From Aquisalimonas lutea (GTDB lineage: Bacteria; Pseudomonadota; Gammaproteobacteria; Nitrococcales; Aquisalimonadaceae), in assembly GCF_030409225.1 (NCBI RefSeq), contig NZ_JAUFPK010000001.1, positions 430,191 to 494,190 of the forward strand: 64,000 nucleotides of DNA. The letters are read 5' to 3'. Of the stretch, positions 3,206 through 55,446 are shown in pieces (position 1 is the stretch's first letter; each line of letters begins with the position of its first letter). Both the position numbers and the translations under genes were made by a program. A model generated the notes under the pieces. It searched no databases. It was not told the DNA's origin and saw only the letters and a list, made by a program, of their open reading frames with translations.

Positions 3206-3638
3206 GCCCGTGTCCGTGGCCGCCGCCGTAGGCACCGGCCTCGGGCTCGAACGGGGCTTCCTCGGCCACCGGCTCCAGGCCCAGGCCGCGCACCATGTCG
3301 TCGAGCACGTGGTCGTGGCGGTAGCGGGCGTAGCCGGCGCCGATCTCCAGCGGCACGTGGCGATTGCCCAGGTGGTAGCAGACCCGGGCGAGCAGCGTGG
3401 CGTCGTCGGCGCGCACCGTGCTCACGGTCTCGGGGGCAGCCTCCACCCGCACCACGCGGCCCTGCTCGCCGGCGAGGCAGTCGCCGTGGCGCAGGATCTG
3501 CCCGCGCTCCAGCATCACGCCCACCTCGGTGCCGTCGGTGAGCCGGCCGCGGAACCGGCTCTTCTGGCGCGTATCGAAGGGCAGCCGCAGCACCCCCTCG
3601 CTGTTGGCGGACTCGACGCGTTCGGTCAGCTGCAGCAT
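3189..3638 (-). CDS. ureE: Urease accessory nickel chaperone UreE
   Basis: Cytoplasmic nickel-binding metallochaperone that hands Ni to the UreDFG complex. The 149-residue product has the usual two-domain layout: an N-terminal peptide-binding domain and a C-terminal metal-binding domain containing [13 protein letters not shown]. It ends in a histidine-rich tail ([12 protein letters not shown]) expected to store extra nickel. It starts 10 nt after ureC and overlaps ureF. Nothing unusual apart from the fairly short His tail. Confidence 0.95.
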
Positions 3639-3648
3639 GGGAGCCTCG

Positions 3649-5355
3649 TCAGAACAGGAAGTAGCGCTGGGCCAGGGGCAGCGTCGGCGCCGGCTCGCAG
3701 GTCAGCAGCTCGCCGTCGGCGCGCACCTCGTAGGTCTCCGGGTCCACCTCCATGGACGGCAGCCAGTCGTTGAGGACCATGTCCTTCTTGGACACGCTGC
3801 GGCAGCCGCGCACGCCGACCACGCGGCGCTGCAGGCCGAGACGGTCGCCGATGCCGGCGTCGGCGGCGGCCTGCGACACGAAGGTCAGCGACGTGCCGGT
3901 CATGGCGCGGCCGTAGCTGCCGAACATGGGCCGGTAGTGCACCGGCTGCGGCGTCGGGATGGAGGCATTGGGGTCGCCCATGGGCGCCGAGGCGATGAAA
4001 CCGCCCTTGACGATCAGCGACGGCTTCACGCCGAAGAACGCCGGCCGCCACAGCACCAGGTCGGCGAGCTTGCCCGGCTCCACGCTGCCCACCTCGTGGG
4101 AAATGCCGTGGGCCAGCGCCTGGTTGATGGTGTACTTGGCCACGTAACGGCGGGCGCGCAGGTTGTCGTTGCCGCTGTCGTCGCCGGGCAGCGGGCCGCG
4201 CTGGACCTTCATCTTGTGCGCGGTCTGCCAGGTGCGGATAACGTTCTCGCCCACCCGGCCCATGGCCTGGGAGTCCGAGGCGATCATGGAGAACGCGCCC
4301 AGGTCGTGGAGGATGTCCTCGGCGGCGATGGTCTCCTTGCGGATGCGCGACTCGGCGAAGGCGACGTCCTCGGGAATGCGCGGGTCCAGGTGGTGGCAGA
4401 CCATGAGCATGTCCAGGTGCTCGTCGATGGTGTTCATCGTGAACGGCCGCGTCGGGTTGGTGCTCGACGGCAGCACGTTGGCCTGCCCGCAGGCCTTGAT
4501 GATGTCCGGGGCGTGGCCGCCGCCGGCGCCTTCCGTGTGGTAGGTGTGGATGGTGCGGCCCTTGAACGCGGCCAGAGTGTTCTCCACGAAGCCGGACTCG
4601 TTCAGCGTGTCGGTGTGGATGCAGATCTGAATGTCGTAGTCGTCCGCCACGCCCAGGGCGCAGTCGATGGCCGCGGGCGTGGTGCCCCAGTCCTCGTGGA
4701 GCTTGAGCCCCAGCGCGCCGGCCTCGACCTGCTCGCGCAGCGCCTCCGGCCGGCTGGCGTTGCCCTTGCCGAGAAAGCCCAGGTTCATGGGGAAGGCCTC
4801 GGCGGCCTCCAGCATGCGGTGGATGTTCCACGGCCCAGGCGTGCAGGTGGTGGCGTTGGTGCCGGTGGCCGGCCCGGTGCCGCCGCCGATCATGGTGGTG
4901 ATGCCGGAGGTCAGCGCCTCGTCGATGAGCTGCGGGCACACGAAGTGGATGTGGGCGTCGATGCCGCCGGCGGTGACGATCTTGCCCTCGGCGGCGATGG
5001 CCTCGGTGCCGGGGCCGATGACGATGTCCACCTCTGGCTGGGTATCCGGGTTGCCGGCCTTGCCGATGGCGTGGATGCGGCCGTTCTTGATGCCGATGTC
5101 CGCCTTGACGATGCCCCAGTGGTCCAGGATCAGGGCATTGGTGATCACCGTGTCCACCACCTCGTCGGCGGTGCGCTGGCTCTGCCCCATGCCGTCGCGG
5201 ACCACCTTGCCGCCGCCGAACTTCACTTCGTCGCCGTAGCTGGTGTGGTCGCTCTCCACCTGGATGACCAGCTCGGTATCGCCCAGGCGAACGCGGTCGC
5301 CGGTGGTGGGGCCGAACATGTCCGCGTAGGCGGTGCGCGCGATGGTATTGCTCAT
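3649..5355 (-). CDS. ureC: Urease alpha subunit (catalytic)
   Basis: Catalytic subunit hydrolysing urea to ammonia and carbamate. At 568 residues it matches the family. All active-site residues are visible: nickel ligands H135 and H137 (AHIHF), carbamylated K218 (GLKLHEDWG), H247 (CIHTDT), H273 ([13 protein letters not shown]), D361 ([10 protein letters not shown]), plus the mobile-flap C320-H321 in [13 protein letters not shown]. The ATG at 5355 follows the ureB stop by one base (TGA-C-ATG). The longer open frame to 5424 would overlap ureB and lacks urease sequence. The enzyme should be active given the complete ligand set. Confidence 0.98.
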
Positions 5356-14111: not shown

Positions 14112-15653
14112 GTGATCGAAGTCGTCTCGCTCTGCTTTGCCTTCGTCTTCGGCATGCTGATCAAGCAGATCGGCCTGCCGCCGCTGGTCGGCTTCCTCGC
14201 CGCCGGGTTCGCCATCCATGCGTTCGGCCCCGCCCTGGGCGTGCCGATGGCGGACGCCCGGCCGGTGCTCGATCACATCGCGCACCTGGGCGTACTGTTG
14301 CTCCTGTTCACCGTCGGGCTGAAGCTCAAGCTGCGCAATCTCGTCGAGCCCGCGGTGATCGGCGGTGCCCTGGTACATTTCGCCGTGACCGTGGCGATCT
14401 TCGCCATCGGCATCTCCTTCCTGCTCGACGTGGACCAGCGCACCGCCCTGCTCCTGGCCAGCGCGCTGGCGTTCTCGAGCACCGTGCTGGCCGCGAAGGT
14501 GCTGGAGGCCAAGCGCGAGCTCCGCGCCCTCCACGGGCGGATCGCCATCGGCATCCTCATCATCCAGGACCTCATTGCCCTGGCCGTGCTCAGCGTCGCC
14601 GGCGGGCACTCGCCGAGCCCCTGGGCACTGCTGCTGTTCGCCCTGCCGCTACTGCGCCCAGTGCTCTACCGCCTGCTTGATATCGCCGGGCACGAGGAGC
14701 TTCTCGTGCTCATGGGCGTGGTGCTGGCGGTGGTCGCCGGCGGCGCCGGCTTCGAGCTGGTCGGCGTGAGCCCGGAACTGGGGGCCCTGCTCATGGGTGT
14801 CCTGCTGGCGGGGCATCCGCGCGCGCACGAGCTGTCGGCCTCGCTCTGGGGACTCAAGGAGGTCCTGCTGATCGGCTTTTTCCTGCAGATCGGCATGCAA
14901 GGGCTGCCGGACGCGCAGGCCATCTCCTTCGCCGTGATCTTTGCCCTGGTCCTGCCCCTGAAGGGCGCGCTGTTCTTCTTCCTGCTCACCCGGTTCCGGC
15001 TGCGGGCGCGCAACGCCTTTCTCGGCGGCCTCACGCTCACCTGCTACAGCGAGTTCGGCCTCATCGTCGCCGCCGGCGTGCTCCAGGAATGGGTCGTGCC
15101 CCTGGCGCTGACCGTGGCGCTGTCGTTCGTCATCGCCGCCCCCGTCAACCGCATCGCCCACGCGCTCTACGGCCGGGTCCAGGGCCAGCTGCAGCCCTTC
15201 GAGCGGCGAACCCACCACCCGGACGAGCAGCCCACCTCGTTCGGCGACGCGGACGTGCTGGTCATGGGCATGGGCCGCACCGGCACGGCCGCCCTCGACT
15301 TCCTCAGCGAGCGTGGCCTGCGCACCGTGGGTGTCGACGCCGACCCGAGCAAGGTGGCGGACCATGTCCGCCAGGGCCGCAACGTGCTCTACGCCGATGT
15401 CGAGGACGTCGGCTTCTGGGACCGCGTGATCCTGGGCAACGTCCGCGCAGCCATCCTTGCCATGCCGGAGATCGAGGGCAAGCTCATCGCCACGCGCCAC
15501 CTGCGCCGGCTCGGCTTCACCGGCCCCATCGTCGCCAATGCCCTGTTCGCTGACGACGCGGAACAGGTGCGGGCGGCGGGAGCGGACGAGGTCTACCTGA
15601 CCATGACCGGCGCCGGGCACGGCCTGGCGGACAAGGTGCGGCAGGCCCTGTGA
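14112..15653 (+). CDS. CPA2-family cation:proton antiporter with RCK domain
   Basis: Predicted inner-membrane K+(or Na+)/H+ antiporter or glutathione-gated type efflux protein of the KefB/KefC/YbaL group. The 513-residue product has about 12 membrane helices (1-365), a short linker, and a TrkA-N (RCK) nucleotide-binding domain beginning DVLVMGMGRTGTAALDFLSE near residue 380. No TrkA-C domain follows. The GTG at 14112, with GGAAGGAA upstream, starts right at the first helix; the frame to 13932 is a poor N-terminal extension. The transported ion cannot be inferred from sequence alone. Confidence 0.85.
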   Translation: MIEVVSLCFAFVFGMLIKQIGLPPLVGFLAAGFAIHAFGPALGVPMADARPVLDHIAHLGVLLLLFTVGLKLKLRNLVEPAVIGGALVHFAVTVAIFAIGISFLLDVDQRTALLLASALAFSSTVLAAKVLEAKRELRALHGRIAIGILIIQDLIALAVLSVAGGHSPSPWALLLFALPLLRPVLYRLLDIAGHEELLVLMGVVLAVVAGGAGFELVGVSPELGALLMGVLLAGHPRAHELSASLWGLKEVLLIGFFLQIGMQGLPDAQAISFAVIFALVLPLKGALFFFLLTRFRLRARNAFLGGLTLTCYSEFGLIVAAGVLQEWVVPLALTVALSFVIAAPVNRIAHALYGRVQGQLQPFERRTHHPDEQPTSFGDADVLVMGMGRTGTAALDFLSERGLRTVGVDADPSKVADHVRQGRNVLYADVEDVGFWDRVILGNVRAAILAMPEIEGKLIATRHLRRLGFTGPIVANALFADDAEQVRAAGADEVYLTMTGAGHGLADKVRQAL

Positions 15654-15868
15654 CCCCGAGCCGCGAAGGCCGTTCTTCCGGGCAGGCATCCCCGGGCGGA
15701 CCGGCGCGACGCGGGGCAGCCGCTTCACTGCGGGCACGGGTGCCGAGCGGGCCGGCTCGTCCGCTGCCGTGCCCCGCGGTTGCACCCGGGTGATACCGTA
15801 ATGGACGAGGCTGTCGGGGCCACGAAACCCGCGTTCCGAACCCGCGCGTCCAACGAGGTCACGCAATC

Positions 15869-16246
15869 ATGAGCAAGTTCGCGTCCACGAACGTCCACGG
15901 CGAACCGCTGGCGCCCTGCGGTCACGACCCGGTCACCGGCTTTTTCCGGGACGGCTGCTGCAACACCGGGCACGAGGACGGCGGCATGCACACGGTGTGC
16001 GCACAGGTAACCCGTGCGTTCCTGGAGTTCTCAAAGGCGTGCGGCAACGACTTGACGCAGCCCTTTCCGGAGGCGGGCTTCCCCGGCCTGCGTCCCGGCG
16101 ACCGCTGGTGCCTGTGCGCGTCGCGCTGGGTCGAGGCGTACCGGGCGGGCGTGGCGCCGCCGGTGGATCTGGATGCCACCCACGAGGAAACCCTGGCGGT
16201 GATCGGGCTCGCCACGCTCCGGGAGTACGCGCTGGATCCCGGCTAG
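15869..16246 (+). CDS. DUF2237 family protein
   Basis: Small cytoplasmic protein of 125 residues matching the conserved DUF2237 pattern: NVHGEPLAPCGHDPVTGFFR, DGCCNTG, VCAQVT, FLEFSKACGNDL, GFPGLRPGDRWCLCASRW and ATHEETL. The conserved cysteines suggest metal or redox chemistry, but no function is established. It has its own upstream region and converges with iscA. Confidence 0.9.
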   Translation: MSKFASTNVHGEPLAPCGHDPVTGFFRDGCCNTGHEDGGMHTVCAQVTRAFLEFSKACGNDLTQPFPEAGFPGLRPGDRWCLCASRWVEAYRAGVAPPVDLDATHEETLAVIGLATLREYALDPG

Positions 16247-47116: not shown

Positions 47117-47536
47117 ATGGTTGGACGAGCAGAAGCCGGGGCCGACGTACTGGGGCCCGTGTATCGACACGCGCACTGGGCTCTGCGCCTGGCCCTGGCC
47201 AGCGTCTTCATCTACCAGGGCGTGGACAAGTTCATGGGGGCCGGCATCGCCGGCTTCGCCACTGCCATGGAGCTGCCATGGATCCTGGGGCTGCTGGTGG
47301 CGCTGACCGAGATTGCCGCCGGCGTACTGGTGGTCGCGGGCGCATGCACCAATCCATGGATAACGCGGCTGGGCGCACTGCTGGTCGTGCCGGTCATGCT
47401 GGGCGCGATCGTCATGGAGCACTGGGGCCAATGGCATTTCATGGCCACGGCCAGCCATCCGCTCGGGGGCATGCAGTTCCAGGTCACGCTGCTGCTCGTC
47501 GCACTGTATCTGTTCGTTCGCGGCAACGACGTCTGA
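47117..47536 (+). CDS. DoxX-family membrane protein
   Basis: A 139-residue DoxX-like protein with four helices, beginning HWALRLALASVFIYQGVDKFM, which is the family hallmark. ATG at 47117 has GAGGAG 6 nt upstream; the frame to 46982 lacks family sequence. It is 14 nt before the first acidic-tail protein and so is likely cotranscribed with it. DoxX proteins recur beside ribosomally made, modified peptides; what this one does here is unknown. Confidence 0.88.
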   Translation: MVGRAEAGADVLGPVYRHAHWALRLALASVFIYQGVDKFMGAGIAGFATAMELPWILGLLVALTEIAAGVLVVAGACTNPWITRLGALLVVPVMLGAIVMEHWGQWHFMATASHPLGGMQFQVTLLLVALYLFVRGNDV

Positions 47537-47550
47537 AAGGGGGAACACCC

Positions 47551-47877
47551 ATGGCAAGTAACCAGGAAAAGAGGGAGCAGCTCCTCCGGACGCTGTCCAG
47601 GGGCGTCGCCTACTCCGCGCCGCTGATCGCGGCGGTCGCGGGCGTCGCGGCCGTGCACGCGATCGTCAGCGACGCGACCTCGGCAGAGAGCGGCTATTAC
47701 ATGGCAGCTGCCGGGGAGGCGGAAGCCGGGGGCGAGGCCGAAGGCGCACCCGAAGGTGAAGCGGAAGGCGAGGCAGGAGCCGAGGGCGCGGCGGAGGCCG
47801 AAGGAGAGGCCGAAGCGGAAGGTGAAGGCGAAGGGGCGTCCGAAGGTGAGGCGGAGGGAGAAGCCGAGGGCAGCTGA
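47551..47877 (+). CDS. Acidic-tail small protein A (candidate modified precursor)
   Basis: A 108-residue product with no recognised family. N-terminal part: charged 1-14, then LSRGVAYSAPLIAAVAGVAAVHA (15-37), which is hydrophobic, then SDATSAES, then a low-complexity tail (55-108) of Glu, Gly and Ala such as EAEGEAEGEG. It contains no Cys. The N-terminal 45 residues align with the other small protein (47968-48210), including LSRG-xx-YSAPL at the same positions. Follows DoxX by 14 nt with AAAGGGGGAA. The tail looks like a substrate for amino-acid ligation; this is inference. Confidence 0.75.
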   Translation: MASNQEKREQLLRTLSRGVAYSAPLIAAVAGVAAVHAIVSDATSAESGYYMAAAGEAEAGGEAEGAPEGEAEGEAGAEGAAEAEGEAEAEGEGEGASEGEAEGEAEGS

Positions 47878-47916
47878 CCCCGGGCGGAAGCAGCCGCGAG
47901 TGCATCGCCTGAAATC

Positions 47917-47954
47917 GAATTGCCCCCGCAGCCATCCGGCCGCGGGGGCAATTC
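47917..47954. terminator. Bidirectional hairpin between the two acidic-tail genes
   Basis: GAATTGCCCCCGC (47917-47929) pairs with GCGGGGGCAATTC (47942-47954) over 13 perfect base pairs, loop of 12 nt. It lies 39 nt past the stop of protein A and 13 nt past the stop of the convergent protein B. A short T run is missing. Confidence 0.7.
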
Positions 47955-47967
47955 GTTCGGGGAAGGT

Positions 47968-48210
47968 TCAGGCTTCGCCTTCGCCTTCGCCCTCACCTTC
48001 CCCTTCACCCTCGCCTTCACCTTCGCCCTCGGCGAGGATCGTCTCCTCGGCCACCTCGTAGTCGCCGGTCGCCAGCTCTGCCGAGCCGGCGTCGGCGGCC
48101 ACCGCGTGACCGGCGCCGGCCGCGGCGACGATCATGAGAGGGGCCGAGTACAGAAGGCCGCGGGAGAGATGACTCATCAGGGATCTGCGTGTATCACTGG
48201 TCTGGGGCAT
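47968..48210 (-). CDS. Acidic-tail small protein B with (Glu-Gly)9 repeat
   Basis: An 80-residue product ending in nine consecutive Glu-Gly dipeptides plus Glu-Ala (61-80). Its leader carries LSRGLLYSAPLM (15-26), then a hydrophobic stretch to about 39, and DAGSAELATGD. It is a paralogue of protein A. The tail is encoded by a hexanucleotide tandem repeat. The ATG at 48210 has AAAGGAGGA 7 nt upstream, the best ribosome-binding site in this region, which argues that it is made. It is divergent from the TTL-like gene. Confidence 0.72.
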   Translation of the reverse strand: MPQTSDTRRSLMSHLSRGLLYSAPLMIVAAAGAGHAVAADAGSAELATGDYEVAEETILAEGEGEGEGEGEGEGEGEGEA

Positions 48211-48311
48211 AGAATCCTCCTTTCCTGTACCAGGCTGACTACAGCATACGCCGTTCAGGACGACGTCCTCCGAGTATCGGACGCACCTGCGGGCGACGAT
48301 ATACGCAATTC

Positions 48312-48346
48312 AACGTACATGCGCGCACACCGCGCAATGGTACGTT
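48312..48346. promoter_or_regulatory. Nested dyad in the divergent promoter region
   Basis: AACGTAC and GTACGTT (48312-48318, 48340-48346) enclose a second perfect dyad TGCGCG-N5-CGCGCA (48320-48336). It sits between the divergent small protein B and TTL-like genes, about 71-105 nt upstream of the latter, and could coordinate both. The regulator is not known. Confidence 0.45.
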
Positions 48347-48416
48347 CTCTCACGCAAGCACCGAACAATTCCGGCAATCAGGCATGCCCTCGCGGAGAAA
48401 GGGAGAAGTCAACGGC

Positions 48417-50834
48417 ATGGCGGAAGAGGACACCAACAGGCGGTTCTGGCTGGGCGGCAAGCGGGAGCCGGAACAGGACCGGTACTTCCTGGAGGCCCTG
48501 GACGACAGTATCTGGACCGAGGGCGGACCGGATGACTGGCATGCCTGCTGGTATACCGGCATGCCGGAGAAATCGGTCTTCACCGGACTCACGGCCGGGC
48601 AGTCCATCAATCACATCCCCGGCAACAGCGTGCTGACCATCAAGAGCAACCTGCACGCGACCCTCGCCGGGGCATACCGTCGCATCGTCGCACAGGAGGG
48701 CGAAGGCAGCCGGGCGGCACGCCGCATGGCCTTCTTCCCGCGTGTCTACGCCATGCCGGACGACTACCACGCGCTGCAGGAGGCGGCCCGGCTGGCGCCG
48801 GAGAAGCCCTGGATCGTCAAGCCGAAGAACTCCGCCCGCGGCAAGGGCATCTCGGTGATCCGCGACGCGGCCACCGCGCCGGTGGACAACGCCTCCATGG
48901 TCCAGGAGTACATCGATACCCCCCATATCATGGACGGGCACAAGTACGTGCTGCGGCTGTACGTACTGATCAGCTCCGTGGAGCCATTGCGGGTCTACCT
49001 GTACAACGAGGGCTCGGTGAAGCTGGCCTCGGAACCCTATGACCCGGGCTCCATCGACAATGTCTATGCGCACCTGACCAACCCGGACATCAACGCCACC
49101 AACACCGCCAGCGCCTCGCCGGTGGTGTTCCGCAGCTTCGCCCGCTACCGCGAATGGCTGCGCGCCCAGGGGCATGACGACGCCGCGCTGTTCGCCCGCC
49201 TGCGCGACATGGTGGCGCTGACAGCGATCGCGGCGCGGGAGCCCATGCGGCAACGGCTCCAGGACACGCCCGGGGACACCGGCGGCTGCTACGAGCTGCT
49301 CGGCCTCGACTGCCTCGTGGACGCCGACCTCAACCCGTGGATCCTGGAATGCAACCTCAGCCCGTCGCTGGACGTCTGCGCCGCGCCCGCGGACGGCGGC
49401 GACGTGGAGGAGGAAATGAAGCGTCGGCTGGTGGCCGACATGGTGCGCCTGCTCGATCTCAACCAGCGCGACCAGGAGGAATTCGCGAGCGCTGACCCCG
49501 CGGAACGCCTCCGCCAGCAGGCGCGCGCCGAGCACGCCCGGGCAGGGGACTACACGCGGGTCTACCCGGTCGCCGAGGCCGATGCCTACCTCCCCTTCTT
49601 CCCGCTGCCGCGCCTGGCGGACCTGGTTCTGGCGGACGACGCGGCGGGCCGGAGCGTCGAGCGCCCGCGCGTGACGCCCTGGGCCACCGAGGAGCTCATC
49701 GACGAGCAGCGGCTGGGGCTGTACTGCCGCCACACGGGCACCCTGTATACGCCCAACGAGACCGCATCGTGGATCTGGCTGCAGGCGGCCGACGGCACCG
49801 ACCCGGACGCCATTGCCGATGCCCTGATCGATACCGGCCACCAGGCGGGCCAGGCACCGGATCCGTGGCAGGTGCGCCAGCAGGTCTGGGACGTGCTCGC
49901 CGACTCGGCGGCATCCGGGCTCCTCCTCCAGCACGGCTGCGGAGACGACACCACGGGCGACGACGATACCCGCGCCACCGCCGGCGTGGTGCCGGAGACC
50001 CCGGAAGCCTCCGTCATGGACATCCGCGCCGGCACGATCGTCTGGCGTGTCGACCTTCCCGACATGGCCACCCGCGAGCGGCTCGCCGGCCTGTTCCGGC
50101 GGACCCCGGACGGCGCGTCGCCGGCGCGTACCCTGGTGATCCGGCGGGCGCGGCGCGGCTATGCGCTGGCCGACGAGCATGCCGTCCGCGCCGACGGGGT
50201 GCGGCTCGCCCGCCTCGCTCCCGCCCTGCGGGGCATCCTGCTCCGGGATTCGGTGCCCGATCCCGCCGCGTGGAGCGTGGACGGGGTGGTGGTGCCGCTT
50301 GCCGGCGGCACGCAGTCCCGCCGGGCCGCGCTGCTCGTCGGCGATGAAGCGACAGCCGCCGGCAAGGCCGGCGCGGATCTGGCGGCGACGCTCGCCATGC
50401 CGTGCTACAGCGGCGCCTACGTCATGGCAGAGACCCCCGAGCGCTTCCACGGCGCACAGCTCCCCGTTCCGCTCCCCTGCTCGGACCGGGAGCCCCCCAT
50501 CCACGAGATGCGCGACCGGTCCCCGGCACGGCTATCGCCGGCCGGCGACAACGCCGGCGACGACGTCTTCACGGTGGACACGGTCATTGTCGTGGCGCGG
50601 GGGGATGATGATGCCGCAGACACAGCCCTCCACCGGATCGCGGGGCTCGACGTGCTCTCGGTGCTGCTCCCGCTGATCGGCACGGGCACCGGCGAGCCCC
50701 CCGACGGCGCGGATGTGGCCCGGCTGCTCGAGTGGCTGGGTGATTGCAGGTTGCTGAAGGTGCGTTCCGATAGCCCGGATGCCGGCGCCGCCCTGGCGAA
50801 CGCGATTGCTTCCGGTGGACCGCACGATGCCTAG
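48417..50834 (+). CDS. TTL-like ATP-grasp / PqqD-like fusion protein
   Basis: An 805-residue multidomain protein. Residues about 45-355 match the tubulin-tyrosine-ligase ATP-grasp family: VKPKNSARGKGISVI (134-148), a KYVLRLYVLISSVEPLRVYL segment, HLTNPDINATN, and the metal residues D298, E311 and N313 in LGLDCLV and WILECNLSPS. Residues about 418-503 resemble PqqD, with GTLYTPNETASWIWLQAADG and ADSAASGLLL. Residues about 530-690 may be a degenerate HPr-kinase-like domain; a Walker A is not clear. ATG 48417 follows AGGGAGAAG; 48384 is an alternative. It likely ligates an amino acid onto the partner small proteins, an inference. Confidence 0.8.
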   Translation: MAEEDTNRRFWLGGKREPEQDRYFLEALDDSIWTEGGPDDWHACWYTGMPEKSVFTGLTAGQSINHIPGNSVLTIKSNLHATLAGAYRRIVAQEGEGSRAARRMAFFPRVYAMPDDYHALQEAARLAPEKPWIVKPKNSARGKGISVIRDAATAPVDNASMVQEYIDTPHIMDGHKYVLRLYVLISSVEPLRVYLYNEGSVKLASEPYDPGSIDNVYAHLTNPDINATNTASASPVVFRSFARYREWLRAQGHDDAALFARLRDMVALTAIAAREPMRQRLQDTPGDTGGCYELLGLDCLVDADLNPWILECNLSPSLDVCAAPADGGDVEEEMKRRLVADMVRLLDLNQRDQEEFASADPAERLRQQARAEHARAGDYTRVYPVAEADAYLPFFPLPRLADLVLADDAAGRSVERPRVTPWATEELIDEQRLGLYCRHTGTLYTPNETASWIWLQAADGTDPDAIADALIDTGHQAGQAPDPWQVRQQVWDVLADSAASGLLLQHGCGDDTTGDDDTRATAGVVPETPEASVMDIRAGTIVWRVDLPDMATRERLAGLFRRTPDGASPARTLVIRRARRGYALADEHAVRADGVRLARLAPALRGILLRDSVPDPAAWSVDGVVVPLAGGTQSRRAALLVGDEATAAGKAGADLAATLAMPCYSGAYVMAETPERFHGAQLPVPLPCSDREPPIHEMRDRSPARLSPAGDNAGDDVFTVDTVIVVARGDDDAADTALHRIAGLDVLSVLLPLIGTGTGEPPDGADVARLLEWLGDCRLLKVRSDSPDAGAALANAIASGGPHDA

Positions 50835-50969: not shown

Positions 50970-51902
50970 ATGCACAAGCGATTCATGCAGCTGCTCGCGC
51001 TGGTGCTGGTGGCGCTGCCGCTGATGGCCGGCGCCCGGTCCATGGAGCCGCTGGTATCGGTGGACTGGCTGGAACGCCATCTCGGCGGGGATGACCTGGT
51101 GGTGGTCGACGTCCGCAGCGGCATCGACGGCAGCGACCGGGCCACCTTCGAGGACGGCCACATCCCCGGCGCCGTCTACAGCAACTACGTCGAGGCGGGC
51201 TGGCGCCAGAGCGAGGACGGCGTCCCCGGGAAGCTTCCCCCGCAAGAGGACGTCGCCGCGCTCATCGGCTCCCTGGGCATCGACAACGAAACGGATGTGG
51301 TCATCGTGCCGGCGGGCGTCGGGTCCACGGACTTCGGCAGCGCCGCGCGGGTGTACTGGACCTTCAAGGTCATGGGCCATGACCGGGTGTCGATCCTCAA
51401 CGGCGGCCACAAGGCCTGGGTGGAGGCCGGCAAGCCGCTCGAGAGCGGCTGGAACGAGCCTGAAACTGCCCGTTTCGAGCCGGACTTCCGGCCGGAGCTC
51501 ATTGCCGACGCCGACGAAGTCTCCCGCGCCCGGGAGGCGGGTATCCAGCTGGTGGACAACCGCCCGGCGCCGCAGTATCGCGGCGAGGAAAAGCATCCCG
51601 CCGCGCGCGCAGCGGGAACCATTCCCGACGCCCTGAACCTGGAGCAGCAGACGCTCACCCGGGAAGGGACCGCGTTCATGGTCGACCGGGAGACGCTCGA
51701 CGATCTCATGGCGCAGGCGAATGTCAGCGACGACCGGCAGACCATCACGTTCTGCAACACGGGCCATTGGGCTGCCCTGGGCTGGTTCGCCCTGAGCGAG
51801 GTCGGCGGCCAGGACAACGTGGCCATGTACGACGGCTCCATGGTCGACTGGTCCCGGGACGAGAACCGCCCGCTGGCCAGCGGCGGCCTGTTCGGCAACT
51901 GA
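50970..51902 (+). CDS. Exported tandem-rhodanese sulfurtransferase
   Basis: A 310-residue thiosulfate sulfurtransferase-like protein. A signal peptide (LLALVLVALPLMAGA) precedes two rhodanese domains; the second has the active cysteine C262 in TFCNTGHWAALGW. The Cys loop is CNTGHW, as in several periplasmic forms. It has its own upstream region and ends in a strong intrinsic terminator, so it is probably unrelated to the TTL-like gene 135 nt before it. Confidence 0.9.
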   Translation: MHKRFMQLLALVLVALPLMAGARSMEPLVSVDWLERHLGGDDLVVVDVRSGIDGSDRATFEDGHIPGAVYSNYVEAGWRQSEDGVPGKLPPQEDVAALIGSLGIDNETDVVIVPAGVGSTDFGSAARVYWTFKVMGHDRVSILNGGHKAWVEAGKPLESGWNEPETARFEPDFRPELIADADEVSRAREAGIQLVDNRPAPQYRGEEKHPAARAAGTIPDALNLEQQTLTREGTAFMVDRETLDDLMAQANVSDDRQTITFCNTGHWAALGWFALSEVGGQDNVAMYDGSMVDWSRDENRPLASGGLFGN

Positions 51903-51957: not shown

Positions 51958-52215
51958 CATGGAATAACGAAACCCTTTCCGAACACAACCATCCCGTTTC
52001 CATCGCACGATTCCCCGCCCGAATGAACCTACGTATCTCCCGTTCGTCGAGCTACGTACGTACATTCGCCGTTGGTGCCTTTTCCCGTTTTCATTAACCT
52101 GAATTCTCAGAGGGCGTTTCCATTCCTGACGCCTTACACTGGCCGGTGCAACAGGAACGCGCGTCACACTGCGGGCAACGTGGGGGCTCGCAACGACGCG
52201 GGAAGGGAGACAGGC

Positions 52216-52965
52216 ATGGCAATACGCCAACGCATCGGCGGGGCGCTGGCCCGCTTTCTCTCGCGTGATCGCCCGGGACTGGGCGACGGCCCCACCTCGG
52301 ACCTGTCACTGCTGCGGGCCTGCCTCCGCCCCGGCGATGTTCTCCTGGTGGAGGGCACCAGCCGCTTCAGTACGGCCATCAAGTACCTGACCCAGTCCAC
52401 GTGGTCGCATGCGGCGATATGCCTCTCCGGCGGGGCCGATGCGGAGCTGCTCGAGGCGGATCTCAACACCGGGGTGCGACGGGTCCCGCTGGAGACCTAC
52501 GCCGGCTACCACACCCGCATCTGCCGGCCGGCGGCGCTGCGGGCGGAGGATCTCGACAGCGTGCTCGCGTACCTCACCGCCCGGGTCGGTCACCAGTATG
52601 ATCTCCGGCACATCATCGATCTAGCGCGTTACCTCCTGCCGACACCGCCCGTGCCGGTTCGCTGGCGCCGCCGGATGCTGACCCTGGGCAGCGGCGATCC
52701 GACGCGGGCGATCTGCTCGTCGCTCATTGCCCAGGCGTTCCAGGCCGTTCACTACCCCATACTCCCGGTCGTGGAGTACGTACCCTGCCCCGGAAGCGCG
52801 CCGGGCGAATGCGTCCAGCGAACCATGCGTCGCCGTCACCATACGCTGTTCACGCCGCGTGATTTCGACATCTCGCCCTACTTCGCCGTCGTCAAACCCG
52901 TACTCGAGCACGAGTTCGACCCGAGCACCCTTCCCTGGGCCGATCCCGCCGAAACGTCACGCTGA
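52216..52965 (+). CDS. YiiX-like permuted papain-fold hydrolase
   Basis: A 249-residue protein of the YiiX/YebB-like permuted NlpC/P60 superfamily. The catalytic His is H65 in STWSHAAICLSGG, preceding C167 in RAICSSLIAQAF, the reversed order expected for this clan. LRPGDVLLVEG is the usual lead-in. No signal peptide is apparent. Members cleave amides or thioesters of peptides or lipids. It may undo the TTL-like modification or act on the envelope; substrate unknown. ATG at 52216 has GGGAGACAGGC upstream. Confidence 0.82.
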   Translation: MAIRQRIGGALARFLSRDRPGLGDGPTSDLSLLRACLRPGDVLLVEGTSRFSTAIKYLTQSTWSHAAICLSGGADAELLEADLNTGVRRVPLETYAGYHTRICRPAALRAEDLDSVLAYLTARVGHQYDLRHIIDLARYLLPTPPVPVRWRRRMLTLGSGDPTRAICSSLIAQAFQAVHYPILPVVEYVPCPGSAPGECVQRTMRRRHHTLFTPRDFDISPYFAVVKPVLEHEFDPSTLPWADPAETSR

Positions 52966-52984: not shown

Positions 52985-53530
52985 CTACCCGGTGTGCCGT
53001 GCGCTTTCCTGCTCCGCCCAGTAGCGGCGCGTGGAAGGTGCCACACCGAAGCCCGTCGGGACCGTGACGCCCTGGAGACGGGCCATGATGCCGATGAGTG
53101 CCATGTGGTGGATCGTGTGGCTCTGGAGAAACATGAGCTCGCGCCCGAGGCTGGACGCCAGCGACGCCTCTGCGGGCTCGGAGGGATCGGCCACGGCGTA
53201 CCGGACGGTTATCGGCGGATCGCCGTCCACGGTCCCGGCAAGCTCGGCCAGGGCGTACATCAGCCGCTGGAGGCGGCGGCCGGCATGGGCCCGCGACCGC
53301 TCCGTTGCACGGTCGCGGCTGCGGTGATGGTAGTCCGCATCGCCGTCAACGGCGGCAACCACCGCCTCGCCATGCTCGATGATGTGGCGCGCCTGCTGCC
53401 CGATGGAGCTGCCGTGGCAGGGATCGGCCGGCGCCACGAAGTCGCTGTCCGAAAGCCGCTCGATCAGGCTGTTCAGCTCCACGAGGGCACGGCGGTTCTG
53501 CTCCACGAGATCATCCAGATACCCGGCCAT
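52985..53530 (-). CDS. DinB-like family protein
   Basis: A 181-residue four-helix protein of the DinB/YfiT-like superfamily. Conserved histidines appear in SIGQQARHIIEHGEAV and LQSHTIHHMALIGIMARLQG, expected to bind a divalent metal. ATG at 53530 has GGAGGA just upstream. Such proteins often act as thiol-dependent transferases, but the role here is unknown. It converges with yiiX. Confidence 0.82.
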   Translation of the reverse strand: MAGYLDDLVEQNRRALVELNSLIERLSDSDFVAPADPCHGSSIGQQARHIIEHGEAVVAAVDGDADYHHRSRDRATERSRAHAGRRLQRLMYALAELAGTVDGDPPITVRYAVADPSEPAEASLASSLGRELMFLQSHTIHHMALIGIMARLQGVTVPTGFGVAPSTRRYWAEQESARHTG

Positions 53531-53789
53531 TGCATCCTCCGCCGCGTTATATCGCAAAAATCCACCGATTCCCGGGTCCGCCCGGATCGCAGCAGTGACG
53601 GCACCCGACGCCCCCCGGTTGTGCAGTTATCAGGATAGCGGCGACGAGCCCCGAATCGCATGCGTAATAATACGGAATCCGGGACGGCTTCCGGATAACG
53701 CCGCATCGCGCCCGGGCGACGGGCACTACGTAGAAACGCCGATACCCCCGGCCCGCCGGAAGGACTATCGTCACTGGTACAGGCGTCAC

Positions 53790-53917: not shown

Positions 53918-54424
53918 TCACGCGTACGGCGGCGCGCCCACGCGACGTTGCCACAGCCGCGACGCCGCCAGGGCCGCGACGGACAGCGGCACCAGGTAGC
54001 CGAAGAACGCGGCGACAACGCCCAGGGCCGGCACGCCGAGCAGCAGCAGGACACTCGGCGCGCAGCAGGCCGAGCCGGCCAGGAGGGCCGGCAGGGCGCC
54101 CCAGGCACCGGCGAGACCCGACAGCGAGCAGGACCGGGGCGCCCGCCACAGGGCGATGACCCCGTGGACATTCAGGGCGAGCAACGTGCCGAGCAGCGCG
54201 GCGATGGCGACGTTGACCGGGCTGACGAGCACCACCCACCATCCCGCCTCGGCCATGGCGACCGCCTCGAACAGGAAGGGCGCGCGCATGCTGAAGATGC
54301 GCTCCGGGCTCACCGCTGCCGTGCGAACGAGCCAGCCGGCACCGGGCTCGAACGCCAGGTCGCCGATGCCGAACAGGTAGGCCAGCGCGTAGAGCCCGCC
54401 GACCAGTGCCGAGGCCGCGCGCAT
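53918..54424 (-). CDS. Predicted membrane protein with Cys-Cys motif
   Basis: A 168-residue protein with about four hydrophobic segments. LLAGSACCAPSVLLLLGVPALG contains adjacent cysteines, as in MerT-like or thiol-disulfide membrane proteins, but no such family is certain. Starts at ATG 54424, overlapping the DUF3179 stop by one base (TGATG), so the two are cotranscribed. Function unknown. Confidence 0.68.
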   Translation of the reverse strand: MRAASALVGGLYALAYLFGIGDLAFEPGAGWLVRTAAVSPERIFSMRAPFLFEAVAMAEAGWWVVLVSPVNVAIAALLGTLLALNVHGVIALWRAPRSCSLSGLAGAWGALPALLAGSACCAPSVLLLLGVPALGVVAAFFGYLVPLSVAALAASRLWQRRVGAPPYA

Positions 54425-55446
54425 CACGAACCGTCCACCACCCGCGTGTCCGAATAGAACGCCGCCCAGGCGAACCACATGGCCTCGAACCCGTTGACCG
54501 ACTCCAGCGCATCCAGGGCCTCGTGGCGGGGTCCGTCGCGGCCGTAGGTCACCCCCTCGGGGACGTCCATCGCCTCGTCGCCGCGGAACACCCACGCCGT
54601 ACCCAGGCCCGCATCGTGGAGGATCAGGTAATACCGGCCGCCGTGCTCGATCACGACCCCGCCGGTCTCCGCCAGATGCTCGCCATCGACGGCAACGGCG
54701 CCCGCCTGCGTCCGGAAGCCGAAGATCTCCCGCTTGTCGGGATAGCGGTCGTCCTCGTTCTGCAGCGGAAAGAGCGGGCCCGAATCGGGCTCGTAGTAGC
54801 CGGAGGGCGGGTTGTACGAGCCGTAGGGATCGCGCCGGTAGTTGCGCATGTAGCCGGTGTCCGTGGACAGCACCCGGGTCTCCGGGTACCGGGCCCGCCA
54901 CTGCTCCCAGGTCGTCCAGACCACGCGGAACTCCTGCAGCCCGGCGCCCCGCCGGGGCCCGTTGATGGCCGCCGCCAGCATCTGCGGCCAGAAGCTGTCG
55001 GTTTCGCGGTCGTACATGACCAGGTTGCTGTTGATCAGCCGGCCCGAGACGCCCAGCTCGGTGTCGCCGCGGCGGAAGCCGAGCGCCGTCCCGGTGAGCG
55101 GGCAATAGGTGATGCTCACGGGCTCGCCGCCGATTTCGTCGTTGACGATCTCGTGCCAGACGAGCACCCGCTGGGGATACGCCCGCGCCTCGCCGTTGCG
55201 GTAGACGCCGATCACCCGGTCGCCGGCATCCAGGAACGCCGCGGCCTCCGCCGCGGACCACAACGCCGGGTCGTCGATGGACGGAATGCCGTCCTTGGAC
55301 GGCCCCCCGGAGCGCATGGCATCGACATAACGCTCGGCCTCCAGCGGCACCAGCACAGGGTCCCGGGTGGGCAGCCCGTCCGCCGCCAGGCGGGCCGGAA
55401 CCATGAGTGCGAGGGCAAGCAGCACGGAAGCGGACCAACGAGCCAT
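54424..55446 (-). CDS. DUF3179 family protein
   Basis: An exported or membrane-associated 340-residue protein of the DUF3179 family. Signal peptide ending ARLAA22, then VLVWHEIVNDEIGGEPVSITYCPLTGTALGF, which is the family core with a conserved Cys. No enzymatic activity is established. It is first of the two-gene unit with the Cys-Cys membrane protein. Confidence 0.9.
   Translation of the reverse strand: MARWSASVLLALALMVPARLAADGLPTRDPVLVPLEAERYVDAMRSGGPSKDGIPSIDDPALWSAAEAAAFLDAGDRVIGVYRNGEARAYPQRVLVWHEIVNDEIGGEPVSITYCPLTGTALGFRRGDTELGVSGRLINSNLVMYDRETDSFWPQMLAAAINGPRRGAGLQEFRVVWTTWEQWRARYPETRVLSTDTGYMRNYRRDPYGSYNPPSGYYEPDSGPLFPLQNEDDRYPDKREIFGFRTQAGAVAVDGEHLAETGGVVIEHGGRYYLILHDAGLGTAWVFRGDEAMDVPEGVTYGRDGPRHEALDALESVNGFEAMWFAWAAFYSDTRVVDGS

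Follow-up and report, generated by a model that had tools for sequence, protein, structure and literature searches.

A TTL-family protein carrying a predicted RRE domain, and its leader-bearing Glu-repeat partners, as a candidate leader-guided ligation system in Aquisalimonas lutea

The question raised by this locus is what a large bacterial protein of tubulin tyrosine ligase (TTL) type does beside two small proteins that end in strings of glutamate and glycine. The window is the whole stretch of 64,000 nucleotides that was analysed, and the features of interest are collected in Table 1. Both small proteins described in the initial annotation are present, one ending in nine Glu-Gly units and encoded divergently from the large protein (precursor B), and a paralogue with a Glu/Gly/Ala tail (precursor A), whose gene starts 14 bases after a DoxX gene. 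The leader of precursor A is LLRTLSRGVAYSAPLI. Beyond A and B, the window genome yielded no clear precursor; a third match there is weak (E = 0.026, L169) and no such protein is in the greedy-choice ORF list. No EG cytochrome was found in this genome.

Table 1. Features of the locus, in window coordinates
Feature	Position	Strand	Basis
DoxX membrane protein, optional partner just upstream of precursor A	47117..47536	+	Pfam DoxX, E 8e-13
Precursor A, 108 aa, made up of a leader, a hydrophobic stretch and a tail of Glu/Gly/Ala repeats	47551..47877	+	ORF translation, leader profile
YSAP (YxxP) motif in leader A, presumed RRE-binding element	47611..47622	+	Pro in 108/108 leaders, Tyr at -3 in 78
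Tail of A with Glu/Gly/Ala repeats, where modification is presumed	47713..47874	+	Family Glu spacing
Precursor B, 80 aa, leader type common with A	47968..48210	-	ORF, leader profile
(EG)9-EA end of precursor B	47971..48030	-	Translation
YSAP motif in leader B	48139..48150	-	Translation, family motif
Predicted three-domain ligase (TTL-RRE-HprK-like), 805 aa	48417..50834	+	Profile searches and predicted fold
TTL-type ATP-grasp ligase domain, residues 7-395	48435..49601	+	Fold match to TTLL6 6vzq_B; catalytic residues
Predicted RRE (PqqD-like) domain, residues 418-505	49668..49931	+	Predicted fold and profile matches
HprK/PEPCK-like domain, residues 530-800	50004..50816	+	Structural match to 1ii2_A
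C92 amidase (YaeF/YiiX type)	52072-52965		26 to 27 bits against cut-off 27
DinB-like protein, co-inherited third component	52985..53557	-	Pfam DinB, 3e-6

The large protein is read from the ATG at 48417; an alternative upstream ATG at 48384 would give 816 residues. Pfam TTL scores 179.6 bits on it against a cut-off of 20.1 (E = 1e-52), and the same profile is matched at E up to 1e-3 by all 57 aligned homologues, which comprise the window protein and 56 of the 80 homologous loci. The closest solved relatives are TTLL6 and TTLL7, at E about 1e-41, and the model of the domain superimposes on TTLL6 6vzq_B with Z = 42.9 and 2.4 A over 366 residues, so the TTL-type ATP-grasp originally proposed here is borne out. 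Residues K135, T221-N222, D298, E311 and N313, which we take to be the ATP and Mg residues, are invariant in 57/57, and the loss of such residues across the family, named at the outset as something that would refute the idea, is not seen. On its profile score and modeled fold, the protein is with certainty a member of the TTL family; that it ligates anything to a protein glutamate or to a C-terminus is itself an inference. Counting against ligation, as far as an alignment can indicate it, is the replacement of the Asp in the TTLL6 motif KFDLR by Val178 in 57/57 homologues, although we do not take this Asp as defining for the TTL/TTLL family. On the side of ligation, there are three other positions at which wild-type TTLL6 chains have C, Q and H and the engineered chains of 6vzq, 6vzr and 6vzs have A, R and I, where the ligase family has A/S, R/K and L. 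The engineered chain was reportedly found in 2020 to favor branch initiation; by the structure titles, the initiation analogue was co-crystallized with both wild-type and engineered chains.

The PqqD-like domain of the initial annotation stands by its predicted fold and less well by sequence, where Pfam PqqD reaches only 21.6 bits against a cut-off of 23.4. The cut-off is exceeded by the homologue at L017 with 27.2 bits, and 34 of the 57 homologues match the profile at E up to 1e-3. In the predicted models, with mean pLDDT about 90, residues 419-505 form three strands then three helices, which is the RRE order. This part matches TfuB1 6jx3_B with Z = 12.2 and 1.5 A over 84 residues, with a further structural match to 5v1u/5v1v, and there are profile matches at E = 3e-4 to TfuB1 and TbiB1, the lasso proteins whose RREs, solved with leaders, come nearest in fold. 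Hence the ligase clearly carries, by predicted fold, an RRE domain of lasso/PqqD type, and that it binds a leader is inferred. A third domain had been overlooked, resembling HprK/PEPCK, with a match to 1ii2_A at Z = 15.6 and 3.9 A over 267 residues; its Walker A is not conserved, and short homologues without it were counted at 6/17.

The leaders of A and B were said to be shared, and the means to ask how far this extends is a profile search of 11,635 ORFs from the 80 homologous loci and the window. A profile made from nothing but the two window leaders recovers a leader-bearing family of 105 ORFs at 73/80 loci, and 105/105 have Glu-rich repeats. With 8 seeds the profile finds 108 matches at 76/80 loci, which removes the objection that homologues of the large protein might never neighbor acidic-tail proteins; a refined version raises the loci with a Glu-repeat partner to 77/80. 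At the Pararhodobacter loci L034 and L041, no leader-type partner was found within the 5 to 8 kb examined. A profile built without the window seeds still recovers precursor A. By a criterion of 6 Glu in 24 residues, 108/108 leader matches are acidic versus 204 of 7,119 other ORFs (about 3%), and the recurrence of leader and acidic repeat together is beyond chance. The Pro of the motif is present in 108/108 leaders and a Tyr at -3 from it in 78/108; YxxP is the motif of lasso RREs. The criterion for a RiPP, a conserved leader and a variable core tied to an enzyme, is met, with the tie being genetic only and modification and leader removal remaining inferences.

The reading we consider probable is that the enzyme, guided by the leader, uses ATP to attach an amino acid (perhaps Glu or Gly) to the repeat glutamates before export; no chemistry has been measured. 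The RRE domain would bind the LSRGxxYxxP leader of the precursor in the cytoplasm, and the TTL domain with ATP would activate the side-chain carboxylate of a repeat Glu, for coupling to a free amino acid through the latter's amine, glutamate and glycine being the likeliest candidates. Many glutamates, two residues apart, would end up carrying branches, and the leader, resembling an export signal, would then direct the modified protein out of the cell interior, the order of modification and export being inferred like the steps themselves. As to whether Glu or Gly is the donor, no residue rule could be read from the sequence comparisons or the literature. That leaves room for a non-protein amine such as a polyamine, taurine or ethanolamine to be joined to the tail glutamates, and the Val found where KFDLR has Asp is in keeping with it, but the closeness of the whole domain to TTLL6 makes this unlikely.

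Where the added residue would go is informed by the position of the repeat. An acidic tail, as first described, holds for A and B, but in 39/108 leader matches the repeat is internal, forming a linker before a haem motif or cytochrome c domain, and these partners extend past CxxCH by a median of 74 residues. TTL itself acts on C-termini, and both window precursors end in acidic tails, so a single residue might instead be added to the C-terminal alpha-carboxylate in the style of tubulin tyrosine ligase, with the acidic tail being only a docking surface. The internal repeats favor side-chain over C-terminal ligation, and the TTLL glutamylases are closer relatives of the enzyme than TTL is, so we give C-terminal addition a small chance only. 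In many species the protein inferred to be exported is a predicted cytochrome c, with the repeat as the linker before its haem domain. The leader is hydrophobic and signal-like, and c-type haem is attached outside the cytoplasm. The Glu-repeat proteins are probably exported, an inference that rests on the haem-motif partners and on a lipobox-like partner in L095. Signal-peptidase sites of AxA type were set aside as export evidence because the pattern, met by 108/108, is too loose to count.

The composition of the repeats bears on another ATP-grasp chemistry, that of graspetide ligases, by which isopeptide or ester cross-links would be made within the precursor. An ATP-grasp enzyme facing a repeat core with Glu acceptors is what such a system would have, and Lys is present in the Robiginitomaculum repeats. 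However, the (EG)9-EA end of B consists only of Glu, Gly and one Ala, so it has no Lys, Ser, Thr, Cys, Tyr or Arg to serve as nucleophile, and neither do 15 of the 69 haem-less repeat stretches, so that the graspetide criterion of acidic acceptors plus nucleophiles in the core is not met there. The enzyme fold is that of TTL, and TTL and TTLL enzymes take a free amino acid. Cross-linking is very improbable on these grounds.

Glu spacing was counted over 2,071 spacings in the Glu-dense stretches of the leader family. It is even in 92.5%, versus 37.5% in shuffled sequences, and EE is found in 0.9% versus 39.6%. Because DNA slippage can multiply dipeptide repeats, the even spacing is weaker evidence than the number suggests.

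Enzyme and precursor are co-inherited and have decayed jointly. A precursor is present in 17/17 enzyme-positive relatives versus 2/42 enzyme-negative ones, both of the latter being incomplete genomes. These two count against the association, as do six further enzyme-negative relatives with weak precursor matches (E = 0.007 to 0.08). Among 117 relatives of a Marinobacter, a precursor at E below 1e-20 is found in 13/13 with the enzyme versus 1/104 without. Related genomes are not independent in these counts. Three Marinobacter that lack a complete enzyme have a decayed cytochrome partner, and in 16/16 enzyme-free Marinobacter examined the Glu repeats on that cytochrome are replaced by Cys (NPCA) repeats. 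That the repeats are only slippage-grown linkers, with the enzyme acting elsewhere and the linkage reflecting no more than a shared locus, could draw on the EG repeats being hexanucleotide repeats and on many neighbors recurring at the loci, but deserves very little credence when the search used the leader and not the repeat and yet every match is acidic, the Glu spacing persists while the unit differs among lineages (EG, EAEG, TPEA, KPEAEA), and precursors unlinked to the enzyme in small genomes still co-occur with it, besides the joint decay.

The DinB-like protein, absent from the initial annotation, is found in 12/17 enzyme-positive versus 0/42 enzyme-negative relatives, and in 13/13 enzyme-positive relatives of a Marinobacter. 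DoxX, which had been counted as part of the system, is rejected as a core part; it is a minority partner whose two clusters cover no more than 7 and 6 of the 80 loci, and it also adjoins the short-form enzymes of L015 and L017. The C92 amidase lies near the ligase in 24/80 loci and was considered as an eraser of the modification, but it is not system-specific, since an enzyme-negative Marinobacter (L201) has what by eye is a look-alike next to its NPCA cytochrome. Many neighbor genes recur at ligase loci. The idea that MNIO makes the NPCA-repeat cytochromes was rejected, since neither G010 nor G012, both NPCA carriers, has a PF05114 match. A DUF6969 gene adjoins the NPCA cytochrome locus in L202, with a look-alike in L201.

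A broader interpretation, which we hold tentatively as a real possibility short of probable, is a bacterial counterpart of the tubulin code, in which a leader-addressed, branch-initiating glutamylase or glycylase would build branched acidic brushes on exported Glu repeats, including the linkers of SoxA/TsdA-like periplasmic cytochromes c. The swapping of Glu and Cys-rich NPCA repeats on the same cytochrome between species would then make them chemically different modules with the same job outside, interchangeable there and perhaps serving metal binding or tethering, and the DinB-like protein would be a further dedicated part.

Side-chain glutamylation and glycylation by the TTL family are known from eukaryotes and microtubules. 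With TTLL6 and TTLL7 the window system has in common the fold over about 366 residues, the ATP and metal residues and presumably Glu side-chain acceptors in acidic repeats; it differs in being bacterial, in its added RRE and HprK-like domains, in the Val for the KFDLR Asp, and in its leader-bearing, probably exported substrates. With PqqD and the lasso RREs TbiB1 and TfuB1 it shares the strand-helix order of the predicted RRE and the YxxP of the partner leaders, but here the RRE is fused to a TTL ligase and the leader is also hydrophobic and signal-like. The bufferins made by MNIO are similar in the signal-like leader on modified exported proteins and in DoxX and sigma-factor neighbors, and different in enzyme and in having Cys rather than Glu motifs; no PF05114 match to MNIO (DUF692) was found in the window genome. 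Graspetides likewise depend on an ATP-grasp enzyme whose target is Glu in a ribosomally made precursor, where the present system has a TTL-family enzyme with an RRE and, in part, repeats without nucleophiles; the words TTL and tubulin are absent from the graspetide survey text. RimK acting on ribosomal protein S6 is alike as a bacterial ATP-grasp ligation of amino acids to a protein. Its polyglutamylation of S6 is C-terminal and leaderless and belongs to another ATP-grasp branch.

The 2009 amidoligase survey by Iyer and colleagues reportedly mentions in its abstract that the TTL family has a bacterial origin, and bacterial TTL proteins, perhaps the window ligase among them, may have been noted there. 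The TTL-RRE system was not found in the literature consulted, including the available parts of PMC8939145, PMC4431377, PMC12340829, PMC13203978, PMC12452194 and PMC12710340; a word search of PMC7470986 had no occurrences and so no such system. If the proposed ligation is true, bacteria would have a type of protein decoration new to them, and the modifications of ribosomal peptides or proteins would gain a new class, on exported cytochromes; it would offer a TTL system simple enough to reconstitute, with YxxP as its address tag, and would bear on the origin of the eukaryotic TTL enzymes. In the window, the 805-aa enzyme and the 80-aa substrate, in which an identical EG unit occurs nine times, make a pair small enough to be readily testable.

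A search of plasmids for TTL proteins gave no match. PF03133 is matched in 45 of 299 sampled genomes of the phylum, 40 over the cut-off, but strongly in only two, the window genome and G196, the rest being short and weak (E = 5e-9 and above). The carriers of the ligase and precursor system are salt-loving and marine bacteria.

The initial annotation had read the 805-residue protein as a TTL-type ATP-grasp enzyme fused to a PqqD-like domain, and both parts of that reading hold, the second by predicted fold; the coordinates of the region hold too (see table). Scanning of public genomes yielded 116 relatives, and the best 80 loci among them were retained, from Halomonas and allies, Marinobacter, Robiginitomaculum and allies, Pararhodobacter, Ectothiorhodospiraceae and Competibacteraceae. 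By sequence and predicted fold the protein is a true TTL-family ligase, matching Pfam TTL at E = 1e-52, with TTLL6 and TTLL7 as its best solved relatives. The AlphaFold2 model, made from 57 aligned sequences (the window and 56 of the 80 loci), has a mean pLDDT of 90.1 and a pTM of 0.87, and its residues 5-395 superimpose on TTLL6 with Z = 42.9 and 2.4 A over 366 residues. The proposed catalytic residues are retained, K135, T221, N222, D298, E311 and N313 being invariant in 57/57 sequences. The Asp of the TTLL6 KFDLR motif is Val in 57/57, which argues against a straightforward TTLL reading.

Genes of the ligase region in the window, with recurrence near the ligase where counted
Feature	Position	Strand	Remark
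DoxX	47117-47536	+	gene for A starts 14 bases downstream
Protein A, 108 residues, Glu/Gly/Ala tail	downstream of DoxX		from window sequence
Protein B, 80 residues, (EG)9-EA end	48210-47968	-	divergent from the ligase
Ligase, 805 residues	48417-50834	+	from window sequence
Rhodanese-type sulfurtransferase	50970-51902		26/80 loci
C92-like amidase	52072-52965		24/80 loci
DinB-like protein	52985-53557	-	
DUF3179 protein	54424-55446		19/80 loci

The rhodanese-type, C92-like and DUF3179 genes form a shared neighbourhood of the ligase that hints at sulfur or stress functions. Near the ligase (L037-L097), a sigma-70 region 2/4 factor and a zf-HC2 gene also recur.

Residues 419-505 are modelled as three strands and three helices in the order of an RRE, the PqqD-like leader-recognition domain. 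Modelled on its own, this region matches TfuB1 (Z = 12.2, 1.5 A, 84 residues) and also TbiB1, both lasso-peptide RREs solved with leaders, and its sequence profile matches the same two (E = 3e-4); an NCBIfam lasso PqqD model matches a Halomonas homologue at 1.3e-5, below that model's cut-off. Residues 530-800 have a PEPCK fold (Z = 15.6, 3.9 A, 267 residues), with HPr kinase further down the Foldseek list (E = 5e-3); no conserved Walker A was found in this domain, and it is missing from 6/17 homologues, the short form of the enzyme.

Leader-only profiles were run against all ORFs of at least 40 residues in the 80 loci and the window (n = 11,635), a Glu-rich stretch being at least 6 Glu per 24 residues. 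As the initial annotation anticipated for the enzyme's neighbours, the eight-seed profile gave 108 matches, in the window and 76 of the best 80 loci, with a Glu-rich stretch after the leader in 108/108. A profile from the two window leaders alone gave 105 matches in 73 loci (105/105 acidic), and one without the window seeds gave 109, both window proteins among them. Among control ORFs of at least 62 residues, 204/7,119 meet the same density; at 8 Glu in 24 the count is 16/7,119 versus 107/108 leader matches. Four of the 80 loci had no match to the eight-seed profile (L023, L034, L041 and L095): L023 sits at a contig edge, with precursors on another contig of apparently the same genome (G009), and the L095 partner, an acidic protein bearing a lipobox, was recovered with a refined leader profile. 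The leader Pro is present in 108/108 matches and a Tyr three residues before it in 78/108, giving the YxxP motif of lasso leaders.

The repeat differs by lineage (EG, EAEG, KGEAEA, KPEAEA, with TPEA and MPEA in a small-genome group). Of the 2,071 Glu-Glu spacings counted within Glu-dense stretches, 92.5% are even versus 37.5% after shuffling, and EE pairs make up 0.9% versus 39.6%; slippage of a six-base unit may have added to this, and the sequences, being related, are not independent. The precursor at L021 7412-7786 has a duplicated core block, with SLDLAEAEGESEGEG present twice, and L086, which also has a DoxX gene, encodes a second EA-repeat precursor (15563-15940) about 5 kb from the first.

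In 69/108 matches the repeat is not followed by a haem motif (3 of the 69 run past the sequence end), and in 39/108 it is a linker ahead of CxxCH; the single haem-type partner scanned belongs to the SoxA/TsdA type (Pfam 7e-9). An EG-type cytochrome with a KPEAEA linker, at L042 6781-7785, carries a second acidic tail past the haem domain.

Probably, the RRE would bind the YxxP leader; the TTL domain would then phosphorylate a repeat Glu side chain and join an amino acid to it, and the product would be exported, with binding, ligation and export all being inferred. On sequence grounds side-chain ligation is favoured, since 39 partners have the repeat in an internal position. It is also fitted by three TTLL6 positions that are C, Q and H in the wild type versus A, R and I in the engineered chain of 6vzq, 6vzr and 6vzs, changes that reportedly convert an elongating enzyme to a branch-starting one; the ligase family has A/S, R/K and L there in 57/57. 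A nucleophile is missing from the (EG)9-EA end of B and from 15/69 haem-less repeat stretches, which speaks against cross-linking within the precursor.

The proposal sets known ligase chemistry under known leader guidance. No TTL-RRE system was found, and the combination and its substrates were nowhere described, in the literature searched, as far as its available parts go; a 2009 survey outside the search may mention bacterial TTL proteins. No NCBIfam model scored above cut-off for the tested ligase, DinB-like or small precursor proteins.

Enzyme and precursor are inherited together. In 59 relatives including the window's own genome, precursor A was matched (E <1e-5) in 17/17 enzyme-positive versus 2/42 enzyme-negative genomes (Fisher 6e-13, though the genomes are not independent); both exceptions are incomplete genomes (84 and 86%) with genuine leader and repeat genes, and six more enzyme-negative genomes have weak matches by score alone (E = 0.007 to 0.08). 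In small genomes the two can be unlinked, for example 176 kb apart in G032. Among 117 relatives of the Marinobacter genome G196, the full enzyme is in 13, two of them with one stop in the matched stretch yet an 809-residue open frame, and fragments are in two. The EG cytochrome, a leader and Glu-repeat linker ahead of a haem domain, is matched including the leader in 13/13 versus 1/104 others at E <1e-20 (Fisher 2e-16), and that one contains a stop codon; a few other enzyme-negative relatives match the leader-repeat part weakly (E = 2e-6 to 7e-4), read from match scores alone as low complexity. Three Marinobacter that lack a whole enzyme have a decayed cytochrome: a DinB-cytochrome remnant (G359), a remnant without the haem motif (G415) and a copy with an altered haem motif (G378). 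The window's own genome, which has A and B, has no EG cytochrome match.

The DinB-like protein, found in 53 of the best 80 loci, is a third component by co-inheritance. It is present in 12/17 enzyme-positive versus 0/42 enzyme-negative relatives and in 13/13 enzyme-positive G196 relatives, besides the G359 remnant; five matches, more distant, come from enzyme-free genomes of other genera. The five enzyme-positive genomes lacking it (G028, G032, G048, G050, G051) all have the short enzyme. Among the members of the DinB fold family are transferases that depend on metals and thiols.

That the repeat can be exchanged is taken as the strongest indication that it is a functional module linked to the enzyme. 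Eighteen enzyme-negative Marinobacter match the EG cytochrome query in the haem-domain part alone (E <=6e-43), and NPC[AS] Cys-rich repeats without such a leader were present in 16/16 of those examined (15 assigned by script, L189 by eye, two left out), so the same cytochrome carries Glu repeats where the ligase is present and Cys repeats where it is absent. Likewise, a cytochrome with Cys repeats is present in two enzyme-negative relatives of the window genome. Cytochromes that share this domain type and have a Sec-like start and many NPCA repeats occur in L185-L200, L201 and L202 (Marinobacter without ligase) and in L130 and L131, and are possibly another modified-repeat system. In L202 a DUF6969 gene adjoins the NPCA cytochrome, and a sigma-70 region 2/4 factor with a zf-HC2 gene lies near it too (3636-4510).
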